Origin: Candidatus Poseidoniaceae archaeon
Lineage (GTDB): Archaea; Thermoplasmatota; Poseidoniia; Poseidoniales; Poseidoniaceae
Direction of reading: 5' to 3'
DNA length: 20,232 nt
NCBI GenBank assembly: GCA_013329295.1
Contig: DUKP01000205.1
Coordinates: 1-20,232 of the forward strand
The stretch's first letter is position 1. Each line of letters starts with the position of its first letter. A program made the translations under genes and the position numbers. This document shows, one piece after another, positions 1,951-20,232 of this stretch. A model generated the notes under the pieces. The model was not told where the DNA came from, did no database searches, and worked only from the letters and a program-made list of their open reading frames with translations.

Positions 1951-4900
1951 ATGGCGATTGTAAATAACCGAACAAAAACATCATTATTTTTGACTCTTCT
2001 AATGATACTAACTCCTTTTGCTGCAGCATCTACAGTGACTACTTTTTCTGATGGTTCATCAGAGGTAGTAATTGAATTCAAAGATGGAGTAAATTTTGAA
2101 AATACCACGGATGGGGGCTTTTATGTTCCAAGTGATGAAACAATCACTTCAGCCTCAGTTGATATTGTGTCAAGCCCGATGATGTATAAATCAAGTAGTG
2201 GTTCATCAGCACTTACATCGTTTTCATGGGATCCAAATCAAAATAATGGAGCTACTACATTTGTAGATCCAAGTAAATTTTCTTTCGAATCAACTATTGA
2301 TTACGACAAAGTTGAACTAAGGTCTGAAGTATATTCTACTGACTTTGAATTTGATGAATCTGGTATTTCTAACGATACGATTTATTTTAATTCCAATGGC
2401 GATAATATCTCTTGGGATTATGATAATGTTAAATTTAAACAATTAGACGAAGGTCCTGATTTCTGTTCATCCGGTGACATGTGTTGGGGAACAAACTTCT
2501 ATGACTCTGATTATACTGATGACGTAGATGTTCAAGGCTTTGGTTCGGAATTTGAATTCCGTATGAAAACTCCTTCGGTTTATTTAGACAATTCAATTAA
2601 TGATACTTACCTACGTTTCTCGAGTTGGCATCAATTAGAAACGAAATATAATAGTCAAGGAGATTTGTATTACGACGATTGTGCTTATATTGAGATAGAA
2701 TATTCAGTTACCGGACAATTTCAAGGAGAAGAAAGTCTTGACATTCTTCCTATTAACTTCCCTTTTTCGAATGGAATCGCACCTAGTCAAGGAGCATTTA
2801 TCCGTTCTGATGCATTACAACAAGGTAATACCATTTCAGCGTATTGTTCCGATGTCCCTTACAACCAGTTTGCCCTTGCTGGGACTTCCATAGGCCCTAC
2901 TAATCCATCAGGTTGGGCTACAATTGCAAGTAATCTAGCACCTTATTTAGGAAAACATGTTAAAATTAATTTCGTATTATACCACTCTGATCAAGGTGGC
3001 AACTTGTTTTCACAACCTACTCCAGGGTGGTTTATTGATGACATAAGTATTGGAGAAAGATACAGTCAAGATGGATTGATGGTCATTAACAATATCCAAC
3101 CGCCAACATCATATGAGGATAAAAGTCCTAATGGATTTGGTTTAATTTACACTGATACATTTGAGCCGGCAGATTCAAAGTTAACTTATACATTCAGAAA
3201 TTCGATTAATGGCGTAATTATTACCGGAACAGATGGTAGGGTTATGGAGAATTTAGCAGGTCCTGTGATTGAGCTATGGAATATTGATACTGATCAACAT
3301 CAATTCATTGACATGGAAGTCCAATTCGATTCAGGTTCACAACAAATTTCAAGTCCAATTTTCTATGGTTTTATGATTGGAACTGAGGTGGGAGTTACCT
3401 TTAATGATTTAGACATAGTAAGGGATTTTGAAGTTGACAACTCAATTTTGAATTTCGAAAATAATTCTGAGACGAGAAATTTATTGTTATACTACAATTC
3501 TTCAGATTTCATGAATAATAACAATCCTTATGATTTCCAAAAACCAATTTATGGCATTGAAATTTCTGAAATTCCGACGGTTTGTAGTGCTGATGTTTCA
3601 ATCAAGCATTATGGTTTAGCCGATTTTGAGCCAATTTCGATCGATGTGGTAAATTACATGACCATTCCAATATTTGATTTTGATCTTAAAATAAAACTTA
3701 ACACGGATTGTGATGTAAGAAATATTTGGTTTTCATTCACTATCGGGGAACACATTGAAGATTTAACACTCGACTTTGGTAATGACGGAGTTGACGAATG
3801 GAAATTTGATGAACCTGCATTTGGGAAGTTTGGATTTCAAGACACTTTTTATCGGACTGAATCAAACGGAATTAGCCAGAGTGAAGAATTGGCCAAATTA
3901 ACCTTAGATCCGATTTCTGGTGAAGTTACAGGAGGCTTTTTCTTATTGCCTAAAGGTGCTGAAGTACAATATTTTGATTTTGAAATCGCCTCCAATTCAA
4001 TATTCAACGTAAATGATACTGCAGAGGCATTTACAATTGGTCTTCAGATTGGGTTAGAGTTTAATTCATTGGGTAATATAGCCAATAGTGGCGATTTGTT
4101 TTTCAGAGATGTAAGGTCAGACATGGATAGAGTGACTGAAAAATTATCTGTTCTAATCGGTTCACCAAACACTCCAGTATTTAAGACAGATTCTTACGGT
4201 ATTGAATGGGTTAGAGTTGGGTTTACAATTCAACAGTATGACTCTAACAACGGTGGCGCCGCCACTTTGAAAAACCTAAGGTCAGTTTATCAGTACAACG
4301 CTACTCTAGACGATGATTCTGGATTTGGTGAATATTTACGCGAAACTGTAGCGATAATTAATCAAAATCAACAAACTGGAACTACCCAAACGTTAGTACC
4401 TTTGAAATCATCTTCTCCAATAGGTGGACAGATTAATCTGGCAAATTTATCAATTGAAACCGAGCAAGGTTATGACTCAACATTGGACTTTATTTCAGGT
4501 TCTGATGGATTGTACAACACTGGAGAGATATATCATATTAAGACAACGCATGAAGTTCAAGCCTCAACCGGAGCAAACTTAGAGAAATGCCGTATTCAAT
4601 TCAAAGGAACAGATTCCTCATTCTATCTTGGTTATGATATGGCTTTAGGATTCTATGAGTTAGATGATATTGATGATTATGTAACATTACATCCCTCCTC
4701 ATCAGTATCTTCAATAGGTTCAAGTGGCGCTAAACAAATTGACTGGAAGTTTACTGTTAGTAGTTCCTGGGATGATGAACAAAAAGTGATTATTTTATCT
4801 GAAACATTGGCTGATAATGGAGTAATCGGCATGCTTTCAGGAATATCATTACAGCCAGATATTGGGAATGCCGTTGAGAATGATATTTTGTTGAATAATT

Positions 4901-7893
4901 TGACTTTATTTAATTCAGCAGGAGTTGAGCAATCGTTTTCACAAGCTAATACAAATCAACAATTGAAAATTATGGGCAATGTGTCTTTTGAAGATCTAGA
5001 AATTTCTCCGAACCCAAGTTCATACAATCTTGTAGTCGAGGAAAGAGGCATTGAAATCGATGGAGAATTTACCAATATTACATGGACTGAAATTGCCAAT
5101 ACAAGTGGTTTTATTGATGGAGATATCGACTGGATTGTTGATTTGGGAATGTTTGCATCAGGTTCTGAAACATATAGATTTAGGATGACTAATTATGAAG
5201 GAGGAGACATTTTATGTCCTCCAGCGGAATATAACCCAGACTCTGATTGTGGTATACAATTTAATTTGTCAATTGACATTCTTAATCCTAATCTTTTGTC
5301 ATTCGAGCTATACAAGAGAGCCGCAGGAGAAGGTGACATCAATTCTGATGACAATTGGAGGGTTGTGTACGACGATTCTTGGGCAACTCCTAAGTTACAA
5401 CAAGATTTCCGTTTTGCTGTTAGTGATGTACCAATACCACCAGAATCGGCTGTTTTGCATGTTTGGGTAGAATATGATCATGACTTAAACTCAAACGGAT
5501 TGCCTGAACCATCAGAGTATATCCAAATACCAACTACAAATACTGGTGCTTCAGAAAACGCATCATTCTTGGGAATGTACAATGATATGGCAAATTCGGG
5601 ACTCAAAGGAGTTGTCAGTGTTTGGGTTGAGTGTTATGACTTGGCTGGAAACTCGGTTGATGGTGGAGGTCCAGGATTTGATAACGATTATGTTACATAT
5701 GTCAGTATGGAATTAGAATATCCTACAATTAGTTCTCTAAATATTGAAAATTCATTTGGAGAGAGAATGATTTCTACAATTCCAACCAATGCACCAGATG
5801 GTGTAGGGATATGGAATCAAACTATGTTTGCAGGAAATGAGTATAATATAATCATCGATGCTGAAGATGGTAACGGCTGGAAAGATGTAGAATATGTTGA
5901 AATTACCCTTGCTCCACAGGAATTGAACTATGACTCAATGATAATTTACTATCCAAGAAATCAAACTGTATGGACTGAAAGTGACATGTTTGATATCTCA
6001 GTTGATTCTGTTGGTGAAACAGAAGCAACAATTAGGACTAGTGATGGCAATGTGCTGATTAGTCCCTTTGAAGAAAATTTCATAATAAATATCCCAATTT
6101 CTATGAAATGGGGGCTTCCGCTTTCTGGAGAATATACTCCATCGTTTAAGATTAAAGATTTGGATAACAGCCCTGTATTTTCAGAGAGTTCATATCGTCA
6201 ATCATGGACTTACCAAAATGATATGCGTCTCGACTTTAGATCTAACTTAGATGAAAAACAAATGATTTCCCCTACTTTGACTGACCAAGATATTCCAATT
6301 TCAGATAATTTGTATCATGAAATCGGTCAAGAGAAATTTATCGGTTCGGTAACCGGTGGCGATGTTGTAATGTTCTCTGGCCAGTATTCTTTCACATCAG
6401 GAATTTTGGAAAATGTGTTTATCAATCCAGAGGCTGAATTAACCATGGAAATTACTAGAAAAGAGGTATTTAGAGACTCTGAGAGAGATTATGACCCAGT
6501 TGAAGAAGAAGTAACGACTCATACTTTCACAGGAGGGAAGTTCGACATACCAATCAAGATGCCGTCATATCAAAATGAATTTGAATATGAATTTAAATTG
6601 ATTAATTTACCAGTTGGAGCAGATGATTTGACAACTGCATATTGTTTTGGTTCAGTGATTAATGGTTGCGGCAAATTCGTGATTAAAGTTGATGATGAGG
6701 CTCCAAAACTTGTCTTTGGTTCTTGGTCAGCATCTAGGGGTGAAACCACTACTAACGGTCTAGAGCCTGAGTTATATGATAAAATGCCAACATCATCATA
6801 CCACTGTGTTGATGTTTCAAGTCAAATAGAAGAACGAGGTAGTCTAGCAGAAGATGCAACAACATTAAACTGGATTTATTTTAACGGAAACCCTGAAGAT
6901 GGTAATGTATGGAATGTTTATCAGAATAATTATGGTACAACCCCATTATCTACTCCTCTAAATTTGTCTGCAGGAAGTTTAGGTTACATTAGAGCCTCAG
7001 CTGATTGTGTTGATCTTTGGCCAGTAAGTTTTGGTCAATTTGATGTGACTGAATCTAATTTGAACTCACCTAATTTAGAAGTGAACTTGGTCATGTGGAT
7101 AGAAACTGTCGACGGAGCAGGTTCGCCAATAATTGGTGCTGGGCGCTATTTCGATGATGGTTCTGCTGTCGGTATCGAGGGTAATGACAATGATGGACAA
7201 GACAGTTCAACATATATCTTAGAGTTTGAAGGAAGTAAGTTTGAAGTTAGAAATACGAGAACAATTCCAGATTCTCCAGAGGTGGGTGATAAGATTACTC
7301 TCGAAGTAGAGTTAGTCAATTCTGGTATTCCTGGAATTGCTGACTTAGAAATCAAATCTGTGACGAATAATCAACCTCCAGTTTTCGAAGGCTACATTAC
7401 TAGTGAAATCATTGGTAAAGATCAAGCACAATGGGTTTCTATTGAATTAGAAGAATTTACTGATGCAACGACTGGGATGTATTACATAGTCTATGATAAT
7501 GAAACCAAGAATGAATTGTTTAATGGTAAAAACCAAGGAAAAACCTTCAACGTTAAGGTCTCAAGCGAATCTGATGATGGATTTTCAACTGGTTTGATTG
7601 TTATAATTCTAGTTGGTGTAATTGCAATTCTTGCTGTAGTTGTTATTGTTATCTCTCGACGAGAGCGTGGTGATGATTTGGATGATGAGTTTGAATACGA
7701 ATATGAAGATGATAAGTCATATGCTTCCATACCACAACAAACTCAAACCTATCCTACTCCGGCTGCTGCTGTAAGTCCTGAAATGGCTGAGGCACTGGAG
7801 AAGTTTAATTTCTGGACTCAGGAAGAGATTCAAGGTTACTTCGATCAAGGATGGAGTATTCAGCAATTAGAAGAATGGTTAGAAAACCAATGA
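1951..7893 (+). CDS. Giant secreted, C-terminally membrane-anchored protein (1980 aa)
   Basis: I do not recognise a specific family. Residues about 10-27 are a signal peptide (hydrophobic SLFLTLLMILTPFAAAS). Almost 1850 residues of acidic, Asn/Ser/Thr-rich, beta-type sequence follow, as in extracellular Ig-like or jelly-roll repeats. Around residues 335-370 a segment ending in PGWFIDDISIGERY resembles the end of MAM / choice-of-anchor-J jelly rolls. Residues about 1764-1870 (EVGDKITLEVELVNSGIPGI) look like a CARDB-type domain. The single membrane helix is at 1880-1901 (TGLIVIILVGVIAILAVVVI...). A basic SRRERG stop-transfer follows, then an acidic tail, and a final 30-residue helical module with Trp and acidic residues (WTQEEIQGYFDQGW, then LEEWLENQ). 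A role in cell-surface structure or adhesion is inferred from architecture only. The next gene starts 10 bases after its stop, suggesting an operon. Confidence 0.85.
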   Translation: MAIVNNRTKTSLFLTLLMILTPFAAASTVTTFSDGSSEVVIEFKDGVNFENTTDGGFYVPSDETITSASVDIVSSPMMYKSSSGSSALTSFSWDPNQNNGATTFVDPSKFSFESTIDYDKVELRSEVYSTDFEFDESGISNDTIYFNSNGDNISWDYDNVKFKQLDEGPDFCSSGDMCWGTNFYDSDYTDDVDVQGFGSEFEFRMKTPSVYLDNSINDTYLRFSSWHQLETKYNSQGDLYYDDCAYIEIEYSVTGQFQGEESLDILPINFPFSNGIAPSQGAFIRSDALQQGNTISAYCSDVPYNQFALAGTSIGPTNPSGWATIASNLAPYLGKHVKINFVLYHSDQGGNLFSQPTPGWFIDDISIGERYSQDGLMVINNIQPPTSYEDKSPNGFGLIYTDTFEPADSKLTYTFRNSINGVIITGTDGRVMENLAGPVIELWNIDTDQHQFIDMEVQFDSGSQQISSPIFYGFMIGTEVGVTFNDLDIVRDFEVDNSILNFENNSETRNLLLYYNSSDFMNNNNPYDFQKPIYGIEISEIPTVCSADVSIKHYGLADFEPISIDVVNYMTIPIFDFDLKIKLNTDCDVRNIWFSFTIGEHIEDLTLDFGNDGVDEWKFDEPAFGKFGFQDTFYRTESNGISQSEELAKLTLDPISGEVTGGFFLLPKGAEVQYFDFEIASNSIFNVNDTAEAFTIGLQIGLEFNSLGNIANSGDLFFRDVRSDMDRVTEKLSVLIGSPNTPVFKTDSYGIEWVRVGFTIQQYDSNNGGAATLKNLRSVYQYNATLDDDSGFGEYLRETVAIINQNQQTGTTQTLVPLKSSSPIGGQINLANLSIETEQGYDSTLDFISGSDGLYNTGEIYHIKTTHEVQASTGANLEKCRIQFKGTDSSFYLGYDMALGFYELDDIDDYVTLHPSSSVSSIGSSGAKQIDWKFTVSSSWDDEQKVIILSETLADNGVIGMLSGISLQPDIGNAVENDILLNNLTLFNSAGVEQSFSQANTNQQLKIMGNVSFEDLEISPNPSSYNLVVEERGIEIDGEFTNITWTEIANTSGFIDGDIDWIVDLGMFASGSETYRFRMTNYEGGDILCPPAEYNPDSDCGIQFNLSIDILNPNLLSFELYKRAAGEGDINSDDNWRVVYDDSWATPKLQQDFRFAVSDVPIPPESAVLHVWVEYDHDLNSNGLPEPSEYIQIPTTNTGASENASFLGMYNDMANSGLKGVVSVWVECYDLAGNSVDGGGPGFDNDYVTYVSMELEYPTISSLNIENSFGERMISTIPTNAPDGVGIWNQTMFAGNEYNIIIDAEDGNGWKDVEYVEITLAPQELNYDSMIIYYPRNQTVWTESDMFDISVDSVGETEATIRTSDGNVLISPFEENFIINIPISMKWGLPLSGEYTPSFKIKDLDNSPVFSESSYRQSWTYQNDMRLDFRSNLDEKQMISPTLTDQDIPISDNLYHEIGQEKFIGSVTGGDVVMFSGQYSFTSGILENVFINPEAELTMEITRKEVFRDSERDYDPVEEEVTTHTFTGGKFDIPIKMPSYQNEFEYEFKLINLPVGADDLTTAYCFGSVINGCGKFVIKVDDEAPKLVFGSWSASRGETTTNGLEPELYDKMPTSSYHCVDVSSQIEERGSLAEDATTLNWIYFNGNPEDGNVWNVYQNNYGTTPLSTPLNLSAGSLGYIRASADCVDLWPVSFGQFDVTESNLNSPNLEVNLVMWIETVDGAGSPIIGAGRYFDDGSAVGIEGNDNDGQDSSTYILEFEGSKFEVRNTRTIPDSPEVGDKITLEVELVNSGIPGIADLEIKSVTNNQPPVFEGYITSEIIGKDQAQWVSIELEEFTDATTGMYYIVYDNETKNELFNGKNQGKTFNVKVSSESDDGFSTGLIVIILVGVIAILAVVVIVISRRERGDDLDDEFEYEYEDDKSYASIPQQTQTYPTPAAAVSPEMAEALEKFNFWTQEEIQGYFDQGWSIQQLEEWLENQ

Positions 7894-7903
7894 GTGAGTC
7901 GTA

Positions 7904-8710
7904 ATGTCCTCGAGGATTGGCTGGGAAGATATTGTTTGGGAAGACCCCGATGGAGGAAAAATTGTCCTCCATGGTACTATTCCAACAGTGGTTTATCCCC
8001 GTAAACTACGCCCTTCAATTGAGTGGCATGGGTTAGCATTGCTTGAGTCTGATGAAGTGGTTGAATTATGGGAGCAGGAAGAAAAAGATGAAGCAGAATC
8101 AAGCGGAGTCAATCTTGCTCATGGTTTAGTATCAGGAGGGACAATGGGTATTTTTCTTGAAGAAGTTACACAAATTGATGAGGTTACTTCAGGTCGATTT
8201 CCTGACCCCGAGCCAAGAAGAGTTCATCGGCTTGCTGTAAGGCACAATCGTCCGATATTCTTCATCGAGCCAGAATTAGATGATGAAGATTGGGAGGCAC
8301 ATATGATTGCAGAAGCAAAAGAAGTGTCTCGCTGGAAAAAGCTACTTGGTTTGGTAACCGTTGGCAAAAAATGGCGTAAAAAAGTAAAACAAAATATTTT
8401 CCAAGCAGAAAAACCACCAAAAGGAGTTACCGCCAATCTTTCTTCTGCCGCAGTATTATGTGCAACATGGTGGGATCTAAATGAGTGGTTAATTGGAGAA
8501 ACTATTGCAGAAGCGCGTAATCTTCGCTTTGCATCTAGATTACGAGGGGCATTGAAGCAATTGAGAATAGACCATGGTAATAATGCAGTTTTATTAGTTC
8601 CATTATTCATGCCATGGCGTACAACTATCTTCAATGAACTCAATAATCTACCAGATGTAGAGGAGAATTCATCAAACAAGACCTCTAGGCTAGGCATGGA
8701 GGAAGAGTAA
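7904..8710 (+). CDS. Conserved-looking hypothetical protein, 268 aa, faint TraB-like pattern
   Basis: I do not recognise this gene with confidence. It has no signal peptide. The middle (about 145-165, SRWKKLLGLVTVGKKWRKKV) is very basic, and the C-terminal tail is acidic and probably disordered. The order of features loosely recalls TraB/GumN proteins: an early 'HGTIP' strand, a mid-protein hydrophobic RPIFFIEPELDDEDW in the place of their 'ALGAPVVLIDR' strand, then IAEARNLRFASRLRGALKQL followed by a hydrophobic strand, like their 'ERN..MA..L' helix and strand. The usual GTxH and GxxH motifs are absent, so this is only a hint. It starts at ATG 7904 behind GAGTGAG and its stop overlaps the next start by one base (TAATG), so translation of the two is probably coupled. 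Confidence 0.6.
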   Translation: MSSRIGWEDIVWEDPDGGKIVLHGTIPTVVYPRKLRPSIEWHGLALLESDEVVELWEQEEKDEAESSGVNLAHGLVSGGTMGIFLEEVTQIDEVTSGRFPDPEPRRVHRLAVRHNRPIFFIEPELDDEDWEAHMIAEAKEVSRWKKLLGLVTVGKKWRKKVKQNIFQAEKPPKGVTANLSSAAVLCATWWDLNEWLIGETIAEARNLRFASRLRGALKQLRIDHGNNAVLLVPLFMPWRTTIFNELNNLPDVEENSSNKTSRLGMEEE

Positions 8711-9243
8711 TGGCTGCGGGTGGAGTTGATGTTAGAGTTGAAAATCAACTAGTTAGATTTGTACCTAAATCTCCAGTCAGTCATGATGCAGTAGTCTCTC
8801 AATTAGCTGGGCAAAAGAATGGCAATATTGTTGTCAAAGCACTGGAAAAACCACGTGCTACGATTGTAATCGATGAAGAAGGCAGAATTGTAGTTCATGG
8901 CACTAATAGAGTTGAGATTGCACGTGCAGCAGCCAAAGAATTACTCCTTAGGCTGGGTCTTGACGAATCGGGGCTTCAAACAGAATTAGGTCCTGTAATT
9001 GCATCATTTAATTTTGAACAAGCAGTAGATGTTGAGGCAATGAACAAAGAATTTACCGGCGGGACCTCTACTTTTGATCAAAGGCTTGGGTGTGCAATTA
9101 TTCAAGATTCTCGCCATAATTTGAAATTATATGTTTGGCCCAATGGCAAGTGTGTCGCAAGTGATGCTCGTCATCCAAATATGGTGGCAATGTCAGCAGT
9201 ATTTTGGAAAACTCAGTTACAAGAAAACAAAATATTTGTGTGA
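8710..9243 (+). CDS. Divergent TATA-binding-protein-like protein (two-repeat TBP fold)
   Basis: The protein has 177 residues, the length of an archaeal TBP. It divides into two similar halves (about 6-88 and 93-175), each with the TBP repeat pattern. In repeat 1, KPRATIVIDEEGRIVVHGTN then EIARAAAKELLLRLGL corresponds to 'PK-x-x-ALIF-x-SGK-x-V-x-TGAK' and the long saddle-top helix. In repeat 2, GPVIASFNFEQAVDVEAM opens the repeat, and LKLYVWPNGKCVASDA then MVAMSAVFWKTQL closes it. The four phenylalanines that canonical TBP inserts into the TATA minor groove appear to be replaced (by-eye alignment: Gly38, Asp55, Leu126, Trp143). It may be a paralogue that no longer bends DNA, or has other partners, beside a canonical TBP encoded elsewhere. 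It overlaps the upstream gene by one base and abuts the TatD-type gene. Confidence 0.65.
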   Translation: MAAGGVDVRVENQLVRFVPKSPVSHDAVVSQLAGQKNGNIVVKALEKPRATIVIDEEGRIVVHGTNRVEIARAAAKELLLRLGLDESGLQTELGPVIASFNFEQAVDVEAMNKEFTGGTSTFDQRLGCAIIQDSRHNLKLYVWPNGKCVASDARHPNMVAMSAVFWKTQLQENKIFV

Positions 9244-11332: not shown

Positions 11333-11387
11333 CTATTTAGTCAATTTTGATGGTAACAGTCAAAGAGCGAGTGTGGTCTGCTACACT
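11333..11387 (+). promoter_or_regulatory. Promoter and leader of the FabI-synthase operon
   Basis: A TATA-like stretch (ctatttag, 11333-11340) predicts transcription from about 11365. The predicted leader would open with an inverted repeat, agtgt 11370-11374 and acact 11383-11387 (5-bp arms, 8-base loop), ending just before the ribosome-binding site ggtgg at 11396-11400. All of this is read by eye from an archaeal promoter model; the repeat is too short to name a function. Confidence 0.3.
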
Positions 11388-11406
11388 TAGTATAGGTGGC
11401 CATGCT

Positions 11407-12201
11407 ATGTTGAACCTCAGTGGAAAGACTGCATTTGTCTTTGGTGTTGCTAGCGAAGATTCGATAGCTTGGGCCATTTGTAAGAGACTTGCTGAAAGCG
11501 GGGTTAGTCTTTATCTTGGATATCAAAAGAGATTTAGAAGTCGAATTTTTCAATTGAAAGATAAGTTGCCTCAAATCGCAGGATTTTATCCTCTAGATGT
11601 TGCAACAGATGAAGATACTAAGGAATTCTTTGATGCTTTTAGTAAAGAAAACCCTGGTAAAAAAGCCGATATCATGATTCATGCCATCGGATTTGCGCCA
11701 AGAACGTGTTTTGACAGGCCAATTTTATTTGTCGAAGACCAAGACATTAATACTGCGATGACAATTTCAGCAAATTCATTGCAAAGATGTCTCAAGTTCG
11801 CATTACCATATCTCAATCCAAATTCATCAACAATAACGCTAACTTATGCTGCATCCAATAGATTTGTTCCATCATACGGTATAATGTCGATGGCGAAGGC
11901 AGCTCTTGAATGCTGGACAAGAGAACTTGCTTGCCATCTTGGTCCAGAAGGACATAGAGTCAATGCCATTTCATCCGGGCCGATTAGAACAATTGCCGCA
12001 TCAGGTATTCCTGGGTTTGATAATATATTGGACCATGTTGAAAAGAATGCACCTTTGAGAAGGAATGTGAATCAAGATGATGTTGCTGGTGCGACGTTAT
12101 GGTTGGCTAGTCCGTTGTCAAGTGGTGTTACAGGACAATGTATCTATGTTGATGCGGGGTATTCAATTACCATGGTGCCAGAGACAATAATGGATAATTA
12201 A
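11407..12201 (+). CDS. fabI: Enoyl-[acyl-carrier-protein] reductase, FabI type
   Basis: FabI reduces the trans-2-enoyl group on an acyl carrier protein with NAD(P)H, the last step of each fatty-acid elongation cycle. The chosen start (ATG 11407, six bases after ggtgg 11396-11400) gives 264 residues, the usual FabI length, and a normal N-terminus MLNLSGKTAFVFGVASEDSI with the FabI-type glycine loop. A longer frame from 11347 would add 20 residues of non-family sequence. The catalytic residues are all present and keep E. coli spacing: Tyr147, Tyr157 and Lys164 in PSYGIMSMAKAALE. GPEGHRVNAISSGPIRT and ASGIPGF are near-diagnostic FabI motifs. The giant synthase gene starts 9 bases after its stop with a ribosome-binding site overlapping that stop, so FabI probably serves as its trans-acting enoyl reductase. 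Known PUFA synthases use PfaD instead. FabI is a bacterial-type gene and suggests horizontal acquisition. Confidence 0.93.
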   Translation: MLNLSGKTAFVFGVASEDSIAWAICKRLAESGVSLYLGYQKRFRSRIFQLKDKLPQIAGFYPLDVATDEDTKEFFDAFSKENPGKKADIMIHAIGFAPRTCFDRPILFVEDQDINTAMTISANSLQRCLKFALPYLNPNSSTITLTYAASNRFVPSYGIMSMAKAALECWTRELACHLGPEGHRVNAISSGPIRTIAASGIPGFDNILDHVEKNAPLRRNVNQDDVAGATLWLASPLSSGVTGQCIYVDAGYSITMVPETIMDN

Positions 12202-12210
12202 GGTGATTAT

Positions 12211-15200
12211 TTGAAAATTACAACAGCAGATGGAAAGGTTGCTGAAGGCCTAGAACAAGGCCGTTTTGAGCCAATTGCAGTAATTGGACTTGGAGCAATA
12301 ATGCCTGATGCTAAAGATGTCAATCAATTTTGGCAGAATATCAAAGCCGGCAAAGTAAGCATAAAAGATGTAAAATCAGAACGTTGGCCAGGAAAAATAG
12401 AAGATTTTTGGAAAAACGGTGGACCGGGAGATATTGAAGAAGGATTTACTTATTCGAAAATAGGTGCATTTGTTGAAGATTTTGAATTCAATTGGCGTCG
12501 TTGGCGACAACCTCCAGGGACATTGAAACAAATTGACCCCTGTCAACTTTGGGCTGTAGAAGTCTCAGCAGCAGCTCTTGAGCAATCCGGTTATGACGGA
12601 GAGTCGAAAGATTTCGATCGTTCAAGATGTGGAGTTATTTTTGCTAATGCACTGGGCGGCGAAAACCGTAACTTGTCAAATATACGAGTATGGTCTAATC
12701 ATACGAAAAATGTTGCATTAAAACACGGTCTGCCACATGAAAATGCTGAAGGTTTTCAAGCAGAAATCGTTGAACATAGTCCAAGAATTGATGAAGATAC
12801 TATGCCGGGAGAACTTGCAAACGTAGTCTCTGGTAGAGTAGCAAATTTACTGGATTTACAAGGTCCTAATTATGCAACAGATGCAGCATGTGCATCATCC
12901 ATGGCAGCAATTTTGGATTCATGCAGGCAACTTCAAAATCGCCAAGTCGATTTAATGTTAGCAGGTGCATCAGACCGAACTATGGATCCTGCAACCTTTG
13001 CTAAATTTAGTGCAATAGGTGCTCTTTCTCCAAGCCATTCAACTCCATTTGATGCTAAAGCAAATGGTTTCGTTATGGGAGAGGGTGCTGGAGCATTAGT
13101 ACTGAAAAGGCTCTCTGATGCGATGAATGATGGAGATACAATCCATGCGGTGATTAGAGGAGTAGGTGGCTCATCAGATGGTAGAGGAAAAGGAATTACT
13201 GCACCAAGTCAAAGAGGACAGATACAAGCGATAGCAAGAGCATATCAACAAGCGGGCTATGAACCATCAACAGTTGAATTAGTCGAAGCCCATGGGACTT
13301 CTACAAAAGTTGGTGACGCCACTGAATTATCATCTCTATCAACACTGTGGGAAGGATTCTCCGGTGGAGATCATGTAGCAGTTGGCTCAATCAAGTCTCA
13401 AATTGGCCATCTGAAAGCAGCAGCAGGAATGGCAGGAGTAATGAAAGCAATATTGGCACTGCATAACAATACGATTCCACCATCTGCTGGTTTTGAGACG
13501 CCAAATCCTACTGTTGATTGGAATAATATTCCTTTCTTTGTTCCAACACAAGCTTCCGACTGGACAAAACCAAATCAACATCCACGTAGAGCAGGAATCT
13601 CTTCATTCGGATTTGGAGGAACTAATTTCCATATTGCACTCGAGGCATTTGAGGCAGAATATCATCAAAACTTAGTCGAGCAATGGAGTTCTAAGTCAGT
13701 GTCAAGCGAGGCAACGGCTAATAGTGTAGCATCAATTTTCGATGCTACTGCTAAACCAAGTATGACTCATGAAGAGTTAAAATCGATTGAGGGCGGACTG
13801 TTATTAATTTCAGCAGACAGTGTTGGTGGTTTGACAACAAAGTTGCAAAATTTATCATTTGAGGGGCCATCATTTGATGATGATCCATGTGGTCGAAGAT
13901 TGTCGAGTGAGTTATTTAGCGCTTCACAATTCAACAAAACCGAATCACACAGAATGGCAATCGTTGCTTCAACTTGGCAAGAATTCGACAAAAGAGTCGC
14001 ATTGGCCATAAAAGCAATTGATGATAAAGCCAAATGGGGCTTTTTACAATCTCAAGGTGTGATGATTACTGATGAACCTATATTGCCAGATGGTGCCAAG
14101 ATTGCTCACATGTATCCAGGCCAAGGCAGTCAATACGTAGGTATGACTTTTGATTTGTTCAAACGATATACTGCAGTTCAGAAGGTTTGGGAAAAATCAG
14201 ATGAGACCATGGTCGATGTATTGGATGGTGAAACTTTATCCAGTTTTGTTTTGCGTAATAATTTGAGCAAAGAGGAATTGATTGAATCCGAGCATAAACT
14301 GAAGCAAACAGAATATACTCAACCAGCAATGCTTACTGCTGATTTAGCAATCGAGAGACTCCTAAATGCGCATGGACAAAAACCTGACATGGTGGCAGGC
14401 CACTCTCTTGGAGAGTATGCTGCATTAATGTCCTCAGGGATACTGAACATGGATGGTGCTTTGCGTGCATCTGCGGCTAGAGGAACCGAAATGGGTTCGG
14501 TCCAAATTGACGATAAAGGTTTGATGGCCAGTGTGACTGCACCATATTCTGAAGTAGCCAAGGTTTTGGAAGAAACTGAAGGATATGTGATAGCCGCAAA
14601 CAAGAATTCCCCAAAGATGACAGTGATAGCCGGAGAAAGTGAACCAGTTAAGGCTGCAATGAGTGCTTTTGAGGCAAATGGATTCTCAACCACCCAGTTA
14701 GCTACTTCTCATGCATTCCATTCACGCATAGTTGCCCCAGCCAATGAACCACTACGCAGATTCCTTGAAACACTTGAGATAAACTGGCCACAAATCCCAA
14801 TCACTGCAAATTTCGACGGTGAATTCTATTCAATGGAAGGCGATGATTCAAAGTCTGCGGTATTAGAAAAGTTAGCACCACAAATGGCATCATCAGTTGA
14901 ATGGACTTCACAGATGGAAAAGATGTATGATTCTGGTGCAAGGATTTTCATTGAGGTTGGTCCGAAGCGTGCTTTGACAATGTTCGCAACTCAAATTTTA
15001 GAAGGAAGGCCACACTTGCCAATAATGACAAATCATCCAAAACAAGGTGGCATAGCATCTTTCCTAACTGCTTTGGCAGGAATTTATCTTGCGGGCAGGG
15101 ACTTGCAATGGCCAGAACCAACCTCTGAAGAACTATCTGAGGCATTTAAGGCAGGGCCGATTGAAGCGCACACCAAGTCGAAACATGATGTAAAAACAGT

Positions 15201-18200
15201 CGAAAAAAGTCCAACTTTGGACAAGTTAGCAACAAATTCATCACAGGTAGTCAAGGCAAATAACGATGTATCAAGAGTCGTAACTGAAGTCTCAGTATCA
15301 ATTGAAGAAGCAATTTCCGCCTATGTAGGAGATTGCCTTGGGCCAATTACTGGTTATCCTGCTAAATTTTGTAGCGGTATGGTAAACTTGCGTACGCTAT
15401 TAGGGTTATCAGATCAACAAATCAATCAAGTAATTACTAAGATAGGTAAAGAGTGTCAAACCGATTCAGAATATGATGTAACTAAAGTAGAGGTAGTTGG
15501 AGATTTAGCGCGCTGGATTAGGCAACCACCAAAAAATTACTTGACAAAACAAACCACTACTTTGGCAGCAACAGTATCACAATCCAATATAGTGGCGAGC
15601 AATCGTACAACAGATCCAATAGTGATAAGTGGAATTTCACTTGGTTTGCCAGGTGGAGAAAAAGTCTTTTCAGAAGATGTCTTTGAGCGATTAGTCCGTG
15701 GCGAAACCTGTATTTCCGAAGTTTCAGATGAATATAAGCAGCGTTTGTTAGACAAGAACATTGTTCGACTAATCAAAGGTAGAGATGGTTCTGTAAATAT
15801 GGAAAGTGCAACTGAGTTTGGTGATATTCCACAACTTGCAGGCGTGAAAGGAGCGTTTGATTTAGCACAGGAATTCGGTATTGATGCTAAAGTCGTAATG
15901 GCTTGGGATATCACTACTCAATTAGCTATGGCAGCCGGTCTACTCGCCCTTAGAGATGCAGGGATTCCACTTACTCCAGTTGAACAGGTCGGTAAAGGTG
16001 GTTTGAGATTAATTACTAATTGGCAAGTCCCTCAAATTCAAAGAGATAGAACGGGTGTAGTATTCGCCTCCTGTTTCCCAGGTCTTCAGATGGCGATGAA
16101 ACATGCAAAGAATAACGGCGATGATGGTGAAGGCCGCTTTGATAGAAGATTTTTGTTCCAAACACTAAATATGGGCCATTCTCAATTTGCTCAATACACT
16201 GGAATTAGGGGGCCAAATAGTACAATCAACTTGGCATGCGCCTCGGCTACTGCAGCATTTGGTGTGGCTGAAGATTGGATAGAAATGGGTCGAGCTGACC
16301 GCGTGATTATCATCTCAGCAGACGATGTCACTGGTGATGATTTATGGGAATGGATCGGTGGTGGTTTTGCAGCATCAGGCGCAGCATCTACGCATAATGT
16401 CGTTGAGGAAACAGCATTGCCGTTTGATCGTAGAAGAAACGGTCTGATACTTGGAATGGGTGCAGCTGCATTTGTTGTCGAGAGAAATTCTCAAGCCAGC
16501 GAGCGAGGAGTACAACCTATTGCTGAATTACTTGGCACCACTATTGCAAATTCTGCTTATCACGGTACCAGACTCGATGTTGAGCATGTTGCTCATACAG
16601 TTGATGATTTCATGACAAGAATGGAGGAAAAGTGGAATTTAGACCGGCATAAGATTGCACCAAATACCGCTTTCTTTTCTCATGAGACCTATACTCCAGC
16701 ACGAGGAGGTTCTGCTCAATCAGAGGTCAAAGCATTACGGAGTACTTTTGGAGATAGTGCTGATAATTTGGTTATCGCCAATACCAAAGGATTCACCGGC
16801 CATCCAATGGGAGTTGGAATCGAGGATGCTAGTATGCTTTACGGTATGTTAACTGGCAGAATACCTCCAATTGCCAACCATAAAGAGATCGACCCAGAAC
16901 TTGGTAATCTAAACTTATCAAAAGGTGGTGATTATCCTAATCTCGAGTATGGTCTGAGATTTGGCGCAGGCTTTGGTTCGCAAATCGCCTTATCTTTTGT
17001 CCGTAAATGGGACGTCCAAGGCGATAGAATTGATGGTAAGAAATTCATGACATGGGTTCGCAGTCTTGCTAATTCTAATGATGTTGTATTACGCTTACTC
17101 GACGGTAAATTAGTCTCTTATGTTGACGGAAAAACCAATCTTCATGGGGGCGTTCAAGGTACAGAATGGCCGATTACACAAAATTTTGAAGGCGAAGTTT
17201 CCGAAATTGAAACGGCCACTCCGCAAATAGTTATTGATGAATCAAAAGAAAATCAAGAAACTGAAATTGAGCAAGTTAAGGAAAGTAAAGAATCCACGGT
17301 AGCAGAGATTCAAAATACGGCTCCTAATGATGTTGTAAATACAGTGATTGAAGTAGTTGTCAAGCATACTGGTTATCCGGCAGACTTTGTTGAATTGGAT
17401 CAAGATTTGGAAGGCGAATTAGGCATTGACACAGTCAAGCAAGCAGAGATAATGGCAGAGATACGCAATATATTCAATTTACCAGTTGACGAAGATTTCG
17501 TTTTAGCAGAATACCCAACACTCAATCATATGATTGGCTACATAGACAAAATGTCTGGCGGTACTGGAGTTGCATTGCAAGCAGTTGCAACCCCGGTAGT
17601 AGTCGCTAAAGAAGCAATCGAAGAGATTGTTACAACACCTCTGCCAACAACACCAGTAGAGTCAACGCCTCCGGCTATTGTTGATGATTCGAATTTGGTG
17701 CAAATAGTGGTTGATGTAGTCGTTGAGCATACGGGTTATCCAGCAGATTTCATTGAATTAGATCAAGATTTAGAAGGAGAACTAGGCATTGATACTGTCA
17801 AACAAGCTGAAATAATGGCAGATATCAGAACCAAATTTAGTTTACCTGTTGACGAAGATTTCGTACTATCAGATTATCCTACATTGAATCACATGATAGC
17901 CTACATACAAAGAATGACAGGAGGAGAAGTTTCTCAAACACCATCAAGTGAAACGACAATTACTCCATCGCCACCAGTTGCAGAACCTAAAGAATCTCCA
18001 CAACCTGCAAAATCAGTTGTTGCAGCAGGAGGTAATGAAGAAATAGAGTCCGAATTAATCGAGGTTGTTGTCAAGCACACCGGTTATCCAGCAGACTTTA
18101 TTGAAATGGACCAAGATTTAGAAGGTGAATTGGGTATTGATACTGTCAAACAAGCCGAGATTATGGCAGAGGTAAGGGATATTTTCTCATTACCAGTTGA

Positions 18201-20232
18201 CGAAGATTTTGTTTTGAGCGACCATCCAACACTCAATCACTTCACAGCTTATATCGTAAAAATGAGTGGAGGAGCAACTGAAATTGAACCAACCGTTTCA
18301 GTAGTTGAACAATCAAGTGAAGAGGAGATAGTTGCCGAGCAATTATCCATGCCTTCTACCGATTCGCAAACACATACTGAGTCCAAAAATACAGTATCTG
18401 GTTGCCGTAGATGGCAGGTTGAAATTGAAGAGTGTCTAGGCGTTGATGAAAGAATCGAATTATCAGGTACTGTTGTAGTTACTGATGATGGCTGGGGTAT
18501 TGCTGAAGAGATATGTTTGAAACTTGAAGGTGCAGGATTAGAGGCGATTAGAGTAGGCTTTGAATCAGAAATTCGCGATATGTCAATGCAGAAGGAAGGC
18601 TCAAGAACGGTTCTTCGTGCAGATCCTGCAAACATAGAGCATATGGAGCAGGTCAGCAATGAATTAAACAAATCAAATATTTGTGGAGTGATTCATTTAG
18701 CAGCTCTAAAATTAGCCGGAGTAGAATGGGATGAAGATACCTATCCTTCATCCCAAATTGCTTTAGCCGCTCATGGGTGGTTTTCATTACTAAAGGGATT
18801 GGATGAAAAATTAGGTAACCTGGACAAAGGAATTGTAGCTTCAGTTACCACCCTTGATGGCAGACATGGAAATATCGGAGATTTATTCAACTCAATCCAG
18901 TGTTCGGCTAGCGGAGTTACCAAATCATATTCCTTCGAACAAACACACCTTCGTGCTAGAGCATTGGATTTGCATCCGGAAATTGTGCTAGATGCGACTC
19001 ATGCCGCAGATTTAATTGTCAACGATATCCTCAATATTGGTGGTGAAGTTGAGATTGGTATAGACCGAGATGGCAGAAGATGGACATTGGTTGCTTTTGA
19101 TGAAAAATTAGAAGCGGACCGACAACCACTAGCCAACAATGATACTTGGTTAGTGTCGGGTGGCGGCTCAGGTGTTACTGCGGCGTCAATAATTGGAGTT
19201 GCACAAGCGAGTACTGATGCCAATGCACATTTTATCTTGTTAGGTCGCTCTCAACTTATCGAAGAAACTCAAACTTGGATAGATTGGAGTGAAGAAAAGC
19301 TAGCAGATAAGAAAATGGCATTACGTGAATCCATGATTGAAGAAAGCGAAGATGGTAAAGTTACCATGGTGGATTGGAATCGTAAATGGCAGAAGTTCAC
19401 CCGTAGTAGAGATGTTTTCATAACCTTGGATAGAATAGAAAAAACAGGTAACAAAGCAAAATATCACTCGATAGATGTGATGGATAAATCTGCTATGATC
19501 GAACTTGGCAAAACGCTTAATCGTAAAATTACAGGTGTAATTCACGGCGCTGGTTTGGAAGATTCAAAATTAGTCGCAGATAAAAGCCATGAAATTTTTG
19601 ACCGCGTTGTTAGAGTCAAATTAGATGGTTGGAAATCACTAATGGCTGCAGTTGAAAACTCAGGAACAAAATCATTGAAGTTTGCAGCTTGTTTCACCAG
19701 TGTAGCAGGTAGGTTCGGAAATGGTGGTCAAACCGACTATGCTGCGGCTAACAGCGTTTTAGATGCAGAAATGGCACGATTGAGTGCAAGTGGCAAGTGT
19801 CGAGCAGTTGCTATAGGCTGGACTGGCTGGAAAGATGTTGGAATGGCAACTCGAGGCTCGATAGAAGCGGTCTTTGCTGCTGCAGGAATTGAAACACTGG
19901 ATGTTGAAACCGGAGTTGAAATCTTTGTTGACGAGGCTCTTGCTGGCGGTAAACGACGAGTTCTAGGTTGTGGTTCACTCGGCCTAATGGACAGGTTCGA
20001 TAGTTTTAGAGAACCACCACTTCGCTTACCGTCTGAAATGGCTGCAATAATAGCCGACCCAGCAAGGTTTCCATTACTTGATAAAGTGATTTCACTCGAG
20101 GAGAATAAATCAATCATTACTGAAACCACACTTTCTACCGAACTTCATCCATTCCTTGTCGATCATGCCATTGATGGCGTACCATATCATCCAGGAGTGA
20201 TGGCACTTGAGATGTTTGCAGAGAACTCCTTG
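12211..20232 (+). CDS. Giant type I polyketide / PUFA-synthase-like protein (partial, open at window end)
   Basis: One uninterrupted frame of 2674 codons runs to the window edge. The start is TTG 12211, behind aggtgat (12201-12207); the first in-frame ATG (12301) would cut into the first ketosynthase. Domains by motif: KS1 about 18-480 (Cys227 in DAACASS, His361 in EAHGTST, His400 in KSQIGH). AT about 630-935 (Ser732 in GHSLGEY, Arg757, HAFH at 834-837 suggesting malonyl-CoA). Degenerate carrier 1031-1108. KS2 about 1135-1600 (Cys1343 in NLACASAT, His1491 in SHETYTPARGG, His1531 in TGHPMG). Three carriers at 1714-1784, 1835-1905 and 1951-2021. KR about 2065-2590 (GGGSGVT at 2317-2323, Lys2470, Ser2497, Tyr2510, Asn2514). 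DH from about 2620 (HxxxGxxxxP with His2652). Order recalls PfaA of PUFA synthases with a second KS inserted and a DH added. The product is presumably a polyunsaturated or partly reduced acyl chain; FabI upstream can supply enoyl reduction. All three carriers have Thr instead of Ser. Confidence 0.92.
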   Translation, partial: MKITTADGKVAEGLEQGRFEPIAVIGLGAIMPDAKDVNQFWQNIKAGKVSIKDVKSERWPGKIEDFWKNGGPGDIEEGFTYSKIGAFVEDFEFNWRRWRQPPGTLKQIDPCQLWAVEVSAAALEQSGYDGESKDFDRSRCGVIFANALGGENRNLSNIRVWSNHTKNVALKHGLPHENAEGFQAEIVEHSPRIDEDTMPGELANVVSGRVANLLDLQGPNYATDAACASSMAAILDSCRQLQNRQVDLMLAGASDRTMDPATFAKFSAIGALSPSHSTPFDAKANGFVMGEGAGALVLKRLSDAMNDGDTIHAVIRGVGGSSDGRGKGITAPSQRGQIQAIARAYQQAGYEPSTVELVEAHGTSTKVGDATELSSLSTLWEGFSGGDHVAVGSIKSQIGHLKAAAGMAGVMKAILALHNNTIPPSAGFETPNPTVDWNNIPFFVPTQASDWTKPNQHPRRAGISSFGFGGTNFHIALEAFEAEYHQNLVEQWSSKSVSSEATANSVASIFDATAKPSMTHEELKSIEGGLLLISADSVGGLTTKLQNLSFEGPSFDDDPCGRRLSSELFSASQFNKTESHRMAIVASTWQEFDKRVALAIKAIDDKAKWGFLQSQGVMITDEPILPDGAKIAHMYPGQGSQYVGMTFDLFKRYTAVQKVWEKSDETMVDVLDGETLSSFVLRNNLSKEELIESEHKLKQTEYTQPAMLTADLAIERLLNAHGQKPDMVAGHSLGEYAALMSSGILNMDGALRASAARGTEMGSVQIDDKGLMASVTAPYSEVAKVLEETEGYVIAANKNSPKMTVIAGESEPVKAAMSAFEANGFSTTQLATSHAFHSRIVAPANEPLRRFLETLEINWPQIPITANFDGEFYSMEGDDSKSAVLEKLAPQMASSVEWTSQMEKMYDSGARIFIEVGPKRALTMFATQILEGRPHLPIMTNHPKQGGIASFLTALAGIYLAGRDLQWPEPTSEELSEAFKAGPIEAHTKSKHDVKTVEKSPTLDKLATNSSQVVKANNDVSRVVTEVSVSIEEAISAYVGDCLGPITGYPAKFCSGMVNLRTLLGLSDQQINQVITKIGKECQTDSEYDVTKVEVVGDLARWIRQPPKNYLTKQTTTLAATVSQSNIVASNRTTDPIVISGISLGLPGGEKVFSEDVFERLVRGETCISEVSDEYKQRLLDKNIVRLIKGRDGSVNMESATEFGDIPQLAGVKGAFDLAQEFGIDAKVVMAWDITTQLAMAAGLLALRDAGIPLTPVEQVGKGGLRLITNWQVPQIQRDRTGVVFASCFPGLQMAMKHAKNNGDDGEGRFDRRFLFQTLNMGHSQFAQYTGIRGPNSTINLACASATAAFGVAEDWIEMGRADRVIIISADDVTGDDLWEWIGGGFAASGAASTHNVVEETALPFDRRRNGLILGMGAAAFVVERNSQASERGVQPIAELLGTTIANSAYHGTRLDVEHVAHTVDDFMTRMEEKWNLDRHKIAPNTAFFSHETYTPARGGSAQSEVKALRSTFGDSADNLVIANTKGFTGHPMGVGIEDASMLYGMLTGRIPPIANHKEIDPELGNLNLSKGGDYPNLEYGLRFGAGFGSQIALSFVRKWDVQGDRIDGKKFMTWVRSLANSNDVVLRLLDGKLVSYVDGKTNLHGGVQGTEWPITQNFEGEVSEIETATPQIVIDESKENQETEIEQVKESKESTVAEIQNTAPNDVVNTVIEVVVKHTGYPADFVELDQDLEGELGIDTVKQAEIMAEIRNIFNLPVDEDFVLAEYPTLNHMIGYIDKMSGGTGVALQAVATPVVVAKEAIEEIVTTPLPTTPVESTPPAIVDDSNLVQIVVDVVVEHTGYPADFIELDQDLEGELGIDTVKQAEIMADIRTKFSLPVDEDFVLSDYPTLNHMIAYIQRMTGGEVSQTPSSETTITPSPPVAEPKESPQPAKSVVAAGGNEEIESELIEVVVKHTGYPADFIEMDQDLEGELGIDTVKQAEIMAEVRDIFSLPVDEDFVLSDHPTLNHFTAYIVKMSGGATEIEPTVSVVEQSSEEEIVAEQLSMPSTDSQTHTESKNTVSGCRRWQVEIEECLGVDERIELSGTVVVTDDGWGIAEEICLKLEGAGLEAIRVGFESEIRDMSMQKEGSRTVLRADPANIEHMEQVSNELNKSNICGVIHLAALKLAGVEWDEDTYPSSQIALAAHGWFSLLKGLDEKLGNLDKGIVASVTTLDGRHGNIGDLFNSIQCSASGVTKSYSFEQTHLRARALDLHPEIVLDATHAADLIVNDILNIGGEVEIGIDRDGRRWTLVAFDEKLEADRQPLANNDTWLVSGGGSGVTAASIIGVAQASTDANAHFILLGRSQLIEETQTWIDWSEEKLADKKMALRESMIEESEDGKVTMVDWNRKWQKFTRSRDVFITLDRIEKTGNKAKYHSIDVMDKSAMIELGKTLNRKITGVIHGAGLEDSKLVADKSHEIFDRVVRVKLDGWKSLMAAVENSGTKSLKFAACFTSVAGRFGNGGQTDYAAANSVLDAEMARLSASGKCRAVAIGWTGWKDVGMATRGSIEAVFAAAGIETLDVETGVEIFVDEALAGGKRRVLGCGSLGLMDRFDSFREPPLRLPSEMAAIIADPARFPLLDKVISLEENKSIITETTLSTELHPFLVDHAIDGVPYHPGVMALEMFAENSL
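17350..18273 (+). repeat. Three tandem carrier-protein repeats inside the synthase gene
   Basis: Three 71-residue copies (17350-17562, 17713-17925, 18061-18273) share the core HTGYPADF, DQDLEGELGIDTVKQAEIMA and LPVDEDFVL without gaps. Copies 1 and 2 agree at 58 of 71 residues. They are separated by Pro/Thr/Glu-rich linkers of about 50 residues. The codons differ between copies, so the similarity is kept at protein level and is not a very recent duplication. Tandem carriers of this kind are typical of PUFA synthases, where extra copies raise yield. The phosphopantetheine site reads Asp-Thr (Thr1741, Thr1862, Thr1978), not Asp-Ser. Confidence 0.9.

Follow-up and report, generated by a model that had tools for sequence, protein, structure and literature searches.

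A conserved three-gene set of marine Poseidoniales archaea that may form an iterative type I fatty-acid synthase

To our knowledge, archaea are usually thought not to make fatty-acid chains, and a locus in which a FabI-type enoyl reductase gene precedes a giant multidomain synthase gene in a genome of Poseidoniales (Marine Group II, MGII) raises the question of what such a gene set builds and to whom it belongs. The stretch of DNA analysed here (the window, 20,232 nt) is the whole of contig C164 from a genome that is 77.5% complete, and the contig ends at position 20232. An initial annotation had described a FabI and a giant open frame at 11407..20232, and reading frames, Pfam matches and residues confirm this observation. 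The catalytic residues of FabI are intact, nine bases (12202-12210) separate it from a frame of at least 2674 codons that is open to the edge, and all of the reported domain motifs were found, the DH with its first part only in the window. The features are:

11407..12201, + strand: FabI, enoyl-ACP reductase, 264 aa (PF13561, 2.2e-68), the proposed trans-acting enoyl reductase of the synthase
12211..20232, + strand: megasynthase, 5′ part, 2674 codons without a stop before the contig end
12268..13494, + strand: KS1, ketosynthase (PF00109/PF02801), with Cys227, His361, Lys395 and His400
14110..15003, + strand: AT, acyltransferase (PF00698), with GHSLGE (Ser732) and HAFH (His837)
15613..17011, borders approximate, + strand: KS2, from two PF00109 stretches and the alignment of relatives, with Cys1343, His1491, Lys1526 and His1531
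17341..17544, + strand: carrier 1 (PF00550), GIDTVKQ, with Thr1741 at the phosphopantetheine position
17704..17907, + strand: carrier 2 (PF00550), Thr1862
18052..18255, + strand: carrier 3 (PF00550), Thr1978
19411..19836, + strand: KR, ketoreductase (PF08659, 1.4e-25), with Ser2497 and Tyr2510
20071..20232, + strand: start of DH, dehydratase (PF21089), with His2652; the remainder lies off the contig

The FabI start was placed at the ATG at 11407, within a longer frame (11347-12201) that opens at a TTG. Tyr-x6-Lys is the usual FabI catalytic set; Tyr147, Tyr157 and Lys164 are present in the window, and the Tyr-x6-Lys pair is kept in all 49 upstream FabI proteins of the MGII loci. The best match among solved FabI structures is 1ulu (2.6e-58). 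On the NCBI curated equivalog models the highest score is 220.0 bits, under the cut-off of 391, and the window's FabI is a divergent branch. A promoter scan near FabI, using a bacterial pattern on an archaeal host, gave no more matches than shuffled sequences, and no Rfam match or tRNA was found in the 20,232-nt window.

The AT motifs GHSLGE and HAFH are of a kind that we take to be malonyl-type. Catalytic residues were compared in an alignment of 135 of 170 proteins, which leaves out duplicate and cut loci as well as the synthase of genome G002, split over two stretches; cut proteins lower the numbers for KR and DH. The sites of both KS1 and KS2 are complete in 134 of the 135 (one gap). The KR tyrosine is present in 113 of 114 proteins (one gap), with Ser in place of the KR Asn in 5 of 113, and the DH histidine and glutamate are found in 109/109 and 107/109 (two gaps), respectively.

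Beyond the right edge, the rest of the DH and a phosphopantetheinyl transferase (PPTase) had been predicted, and both exist in relatives and in the genome itself: contig C189 opens with a DH end followed by a PPTase gene, and a comparison by eye with locus L037 leaves ~40 codons uncovered between C164 and C189. A further AT or a release domain had also been expected there; neither a thioesterase nor an extra AT was seen after the DH in the relatives' proteins or on C189. Full-length relatives mostly measure 2,700-3,100 aa (one frame reaches 3,211 from an upstream start), and a gene of ~200-290 aa directly follows the synthase. We scanned six such post-synthase proteins, each from a different genome, and every one exceeded the cut-off of the PPTase family. 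Gene content was compared in 32 chosen genomes, of which 20 carry the synthase and 12 do not; these 12 are at least 86% complete and come from four genera of one family. The genomes are related, so the counts are not independent. A PPTase was detected in 18 of the 20 (17 over cut-off) and in 0 of the 12. Both misses belong to g12, in which the post-synthase gene is short and matches no Pfam family; it aligns with PPTases and has retained GxDxE as well as the last Lys, a usual Lys being Ile in some. Taken by position, as the next small frame within 150 bases, a PPTase follows in 85 of 170 loci; at L113 this frame encodes a different protein, and the PPTase motif is absent from 3 of 29 such frames outside MGII. 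Taken by similarity, a separate match was obtained within the available sequence for 30 of 80 named loci, and one inside the synthase frame for 5 of 80 (best 80 of 541).

The host is archaeal, as had been inferred at the outset. Three further features of the window lie upstream of the operon:

644-1105, − strand: 4HBT-type thioesterase, ~10 kb upstream of the operon
1951-7893: very long protein of 1980 aa that looks secreted or membrane-anchored
8710-9243: TBP-type protein, a partial profile match (30.8 bits; cut-off 22.9)

The thioesterase also occurs upstream in G002 (L035:16931-17392) and is a possible, unlinked release enzyme. A frame of similar length to 1951-7893 stands at the same place in G002. 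The TBP-type match covers part of the TBP profile, and the protein may be a TBP paralog.

Since the three genes recur in the same order in other genomes of Poseidoniales, the operon is not a chance arrangement. The family occurs in many bacteria, which would fit a bacterial or chimeric contig, the objection that the initial annotation itself had raised. However, a TBP-type gene lies on the same contig, and the upstream genes recur with similar opening residues and in the same order in other Poseidoniales, one of them a single-contig genome of 2.06 Mb. The organism names among the 120 nearest proteins listed are Poseidonia sp., Candidatus Poseidoniales or Poseidoniaceae archaeon, and Euryarchaeota archaeon. 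We regard a foreign or chimeric contig as excluded for practical purposes. The GC fraction in 1-kb windows is 0.39-0.44 in the operon and 0.34-0.42 in the remaining contig, close enough that base composition gives no sign of a recent import.

The synthase was found in 179 of 292 sampled genomes of the class, in 25 of 38 high-quality ones and in 16 of 25 genera; nine genera are without it, so the order can live without the synthase. FabI lies directly 5′ of the synthase in 49 of 54 MGII loci, the other five being cut 1-660 bases upstream, and among the chosen genomes a FabI homolog (1e-40) is present in 20/20 with and 0/12 without the synthase. Carrier domains (PF00550) follow the same division (19/20 against 0/12), the one miss being G024, where the gene is split between contigs. 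FabI, synthase and PPTase are thus inherited together. A secondary acyl or polyketide product had been proposed initially; the spread across the order and the fixed set with FabI and PPTase speak for a long-established resident role and not for an occasional secondary product. Of 46 carrier matches in the 32 genomes, 44 lie inside megasynthase frames, and no stand-alone carrier was found in these genomes save for two matches on contig C24 of G080. These (L068) are long carrier-matching frames with odd flanks that look eukaryotic, and they are probably a contaminant.

A carboxyltransferase and PlsC-type acyltransferases occur in all 32 genomes, and the archaeal lipid enzyme family PF01884 in 17 of the 20 synthase-bearing and 7 of the 12 synthase-lacking ones. 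The PlsC family was rejected as a marker of the synthase for its generality; one paralog only tracks the synthase. This unlinked protein of ~540 aa (L203:2811-4412; other examples at L206, L208, L210, L217 and L220) forms its own clade and is found in 154 of 292 genomes; its 13 genera are a subset of the 16 that have the synthase. Synthase and paralog occur together in 144 genomes, the synthase alone in 35, the paralog alone in 10 and neither in 103; the ten paralog-only genomes all belong to synthase-bearing genera. It is missing from the synthase genera g5, g8 (a single genome) and g12. The paralog is a candidate user of the synthase chains. Two examples have no Pfam family beyond the acyltransferase domain, and several matches in other genomes read through one stop codon.

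The system had been likened to polyunsaturated fatty-acid (PUFA) synthases (PfaA-D), but by the PfaA cut-off and by domain order its closest kind appears to be another. The full-length relatives L037 and L046 score highest with the PfaA profile, at 868.8 and 857.9 bits, under the curated cut-off of 1010.1, and PfaD was found over cut-off in none of the 32 genomes (seven weak partial matches), so that a strict PUFA synthase was rejected. The Type R synthases of Shulse and Allen 2011 (PMC3098273) are described, in the portion of that paper available to us, as one PfaA homolog with the order KS-MAT-CLF-ACP(3-6)-KR followed by a PPTase, from Acidobacteria, Elusimicrobia and Chloroflexi; that portion gives no product and groups Type R with secondary lipid synthases, and the word archaea is absent from the main text of the paper. 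The MGII protein likewise is a single PfaA-like chain of KS, AT, a second KS, tandem carriers and KR, with a PPTase directly downstream in relatives and, on C189, in its own genome. The window holds three carriers and MGII proteins two to four, against three to six in Type R. A KS tree with outside sequences puts MGII on the same side as Elusimicrobium, Acidobacteria and Chloroflexi, apart from other polyketide synthases (Type P, enediyne and others), with a branch support of 67 and with L118 on the other side. MGII differs from Type R in its archaeal hosts, in the FabI directly upstream, in a recognisable DH and in the full catalytic residues of its second KS. Acyl-CoA carboxylase genes adjoin several bacterial copies, some with acyl-CoA-dehydrogenase-type genes nearby, whereas inspection of the MGII neighbour lists by eye revealed no carboxylase gene.

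With PfaA-D/E the MGII system shares the order KS-AT-ACPs-KR and a dedicated PPTase; it differs in having FabI and not a flavin reductase, and neither PfaB nor PfaC was recognised by eye among the neighbours. FabI is also its likeness to the bacterial type II fatty-acid synthase, from which it departs in carrying its carriers inside one giant protein. The system fits best with the Type R secondary lipid synthases of bacteria, as an archaeal variant, and not with the PUFA synthases. In the open-access literature searched, where absence is not proof, we found no prior description of this operon in archaea; an octocoral paper names Poseidoniales in its references only, in the text available. New here are the hosts, which are archaea; a FabI in place of the fused flavin-type domain found in Asgard and other relatives; a second KS with complete catalytic residues at the CLF position; and threonine at the phosphopantetheine site of the carriers.

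The family extends well beyond MGII. In a sample of the phylum, 104 of 389 genomes match the synthase at 1e-60, 17 of them outside MGII, and the best 80 of 541 confirmed places in named genomes mostly show the same core order, in Elusimicrobiota, Anaerolineae, Acidobacteria, Myxococcota, Mycobacterium, Spirochaetes, Asgard archaea, Thermoplasmatota and others. For the family tree we used 105 of 113 loci (three of short span were skipped and five lacked one of three domain hits). The MGII proteins form one clade (support 100), with the Thermoplasmatota sequence L114 as nearest row (99), both on long branches; the tree with outside rows joins MGII and L114 again (98). A gain from bacteria, as initially inferred, is possible; members of the family also occur in Asgard archaea and elsewhere in Thermoplasmatota, which allow for another direction or date of transfer. 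The synthase of g9 (L050), a genus grouped with family f1, falls in the f2 clade; in the second tree its place at the MGII base is not settled, and transfer within the order is possible.

PfaD is related to the nitronate-monooxygenase family. An N-terminal domain of this type is found above cut-off in L124 and L186 (Asgard), L118 (Thermoplasmatota f23), L180 (a Spirochaete) and L183 (a deltaproteobacterium); tblastn adds L125, L121, L164 and L197, and weak signals come from L119 and L112 (sub-threshold Pfam) and from L115 and L155 (weak tblastn). The synthases of the Asgard archaea (L124, L125, L186), f23 (L118, L121), Spirochaetes (L164, L180), Desulfoluna (L197) and L183 share with MGII the KS-AT-KS2 core and tandem, mostly threonine carriers, but they carry the PfaD-like domain fused at the N-terminus, where MGII has a separate FabI; no flavin-type domain was detected in the two full-length MGII synthases scanned. 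The comparison supports the initial proposal that FabI replaces a PfaD-type flavin enzyme. Two f15 Thermoplasmatota loci, L113 and L117, also have FabI, and in one of them a short piece of the flavin domain survives. In a list of the 120 proteins closest to the f15 FabI, organism names are given for seven, six Thermoplasmatota and one Methanobacteriota. Among the best 80 of 541 named loci, FabI was detected (tblastn 1e-8) at one, L189, and many bacterial members have neither FabI nor a flavin-type domain adjoining, many flanks being short or cut. L113 (G329) is the same sequence as L189, which is titled 'Proteobacteria bacterium' (Centralia_MAG_189), a title that looks wrong or outdated. A gene of ~545-560 aa lies directly upstream of the bacterial Type R-like synthases L129, L135, L138 and L163; the one scanned, at L129, belongs to the acyl-CoA dehydrogenase family and is a candidate for the missing enoyl reductase.

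Two features bear on how the synthase could work, the second KS and the threonine carriers. KS2 might be a chain-length factor, leaving one condensing ketosynthase only. Its position after the AT agrees with the CLF label in the order KS-MAT-CLF-ACP-KR of the available text of PMC3098273 (2011), and it is distant from typical KSs (best solved structure 5e-26). Chain-length factors, however, usually lack the Cys that is present here. Retention of the KS-site Cys, His, Lys and His in nearly every aligned protein leads us to read KS2 as a probable working ketosynthase, and we consider the chain-length-factor assignment rather unlikely. As for the carriers, serine is the usual phosphopantetheine acceptor and threonine is not; the four solved carriers with printed alignments have serine at this position, and we found nothing on threonine as acceptor in the literature searched. 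Residues could be read in 103 of the 105 tree rows, and counting all recognised carriers of each protein, 95 have threonine, six serine and two a mixture. The carriers might accordingly never be armed at this residue, the synthase being a relic or working otherwise. Against this, the catalytic sites are conserved, a PPTase adjoins the synthase, and the tree requires a minimum of four changes between serine and threonine, two of them within MGII (serine occurs in g9, g12 and g19), with two synthases mixing both. Interchange together with kept catalytic sites suggests that threonine is functional, and unarmed carriers seem to us quite improbable. That the threonines are an artefact of the threonine pattern used in the search was rejected: all 53 named loci with NTKG[FYI]TGH (best 80 of 541) have threonine carriers (a mixture in one case), and the search that recovered the MGII and Thermoplasmatota genomes used the whole protein. 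The activation of threonine carriers is a separate, general question that could be answered in isolates with a relative, for example Longilinea arvoryzae KOME-1 (L172) or Nonomuraea gerenzanensis (L223).

On balance, we consider it probable that FabI, megasynthase and PPTase work as one unit in Poseidoniales, namely as an iterative type I fatty-acid synthase that feeds membrane lipids. The PPTase would arm the tandem carriers, the AT would load malonyl units from an acyl-CoA carboxylase, KS1 and KS2 would both condense, the KR would reduce and the DH dehydrate, and FabI, as a separate protein, would reduce the enoyl group. Gene order, domains, catalytic residues and joint inheritance are observed; activity on the threonine carriers and the length, saturation and lipid destination of the chain are what we infer. 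Given enoyl reduction by FabI, the chain is proposed to be largely saturated; as no release domain was seen, it most likely leaves by direct transfer to a PlsC-kind acyltransferase or to CoA, and the chains would end in membrane glycerolipids beside isoprenoid ether lipids. PlsC-type enzymes are also present in the 12 synthase-lacking genomes and are thus no proof of this destination. The gene set could alternatively be a secondary lipid or polyketide synthase in which FabI acts in some cycles only, its polyunsaturated, hydroxylated or glycolipid-bound chain serving a special role (light, storage, surface) and not bulk membrane lipid. The PfaA profile as best match of L037 and L046, the class in which PMC3098273 places Type R in the text available, and the nine genera that live without the synthase would all agree with such a product. 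The lack of PfaD over cut-off in the 32 genomes, the lack of a FabA-type dehydratase among the Pfam matches of the two full-length synthases, and the wide conservation with a FabI and PPTase of its own speak against it, and we hold a secondary product to be the less plausible outcome, at perhaps a quarter of our belief.

Published accounts of MGII lipids, each available to us in part, bear on the membrane-feeding fatty-acid synthase from both sides. PMC6962369, citing Villanueva et al., describes MGII as lacking G1P dehydrogenase, with PlsC homologs and a putative route to fatty acids; it adds that known archaeal membrane lipids could not be assigned to MGII where they dominate, and these points favour the synthase reading. 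Its lipid survey likewise found no unusual lipids in high abundance assignable to MGII, which counts against this reading. PMC6461757 describes the backbone enzyme as absent in 270 genomes, with G3P dehydrogenase in all genera except Q1; the archaeal lipid set is said to be complete, and every genus to degrade fatty acids. If MGII degrade fatty acids, acyl chains could be taken up, which also argues against synthesis for the membrane. The mixed-membrane idea is repeated in PMC7852524. In its full form the proposal holds that Poseidoniales produce the fatty acids of their membranes themselves, with a complete archaeal type I synthase in which both ketosynthases are active, FabI acts in trans and phosphopantetheine is bound to threonine, and that natural mixed ether/acyl membranes result; we advance it tentatively, as possible and short of probable.

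Archaea that abound at the ocean surface thus have a compact set of three genes whose products seem capable of assembling fatty-acid chains. With a conserved set of named enzymes, the question of archaeal fatty acids becomes a three-gene test, and the puzzle of the MGII membrane becomes directly testable. The finding bears on the lipid divide and on ocean lipid biomarkers and, if the full proposal is true, mixed ether/acyl membranes would exist in an archaeal group that ranks among the most abundant in the surface ocean.
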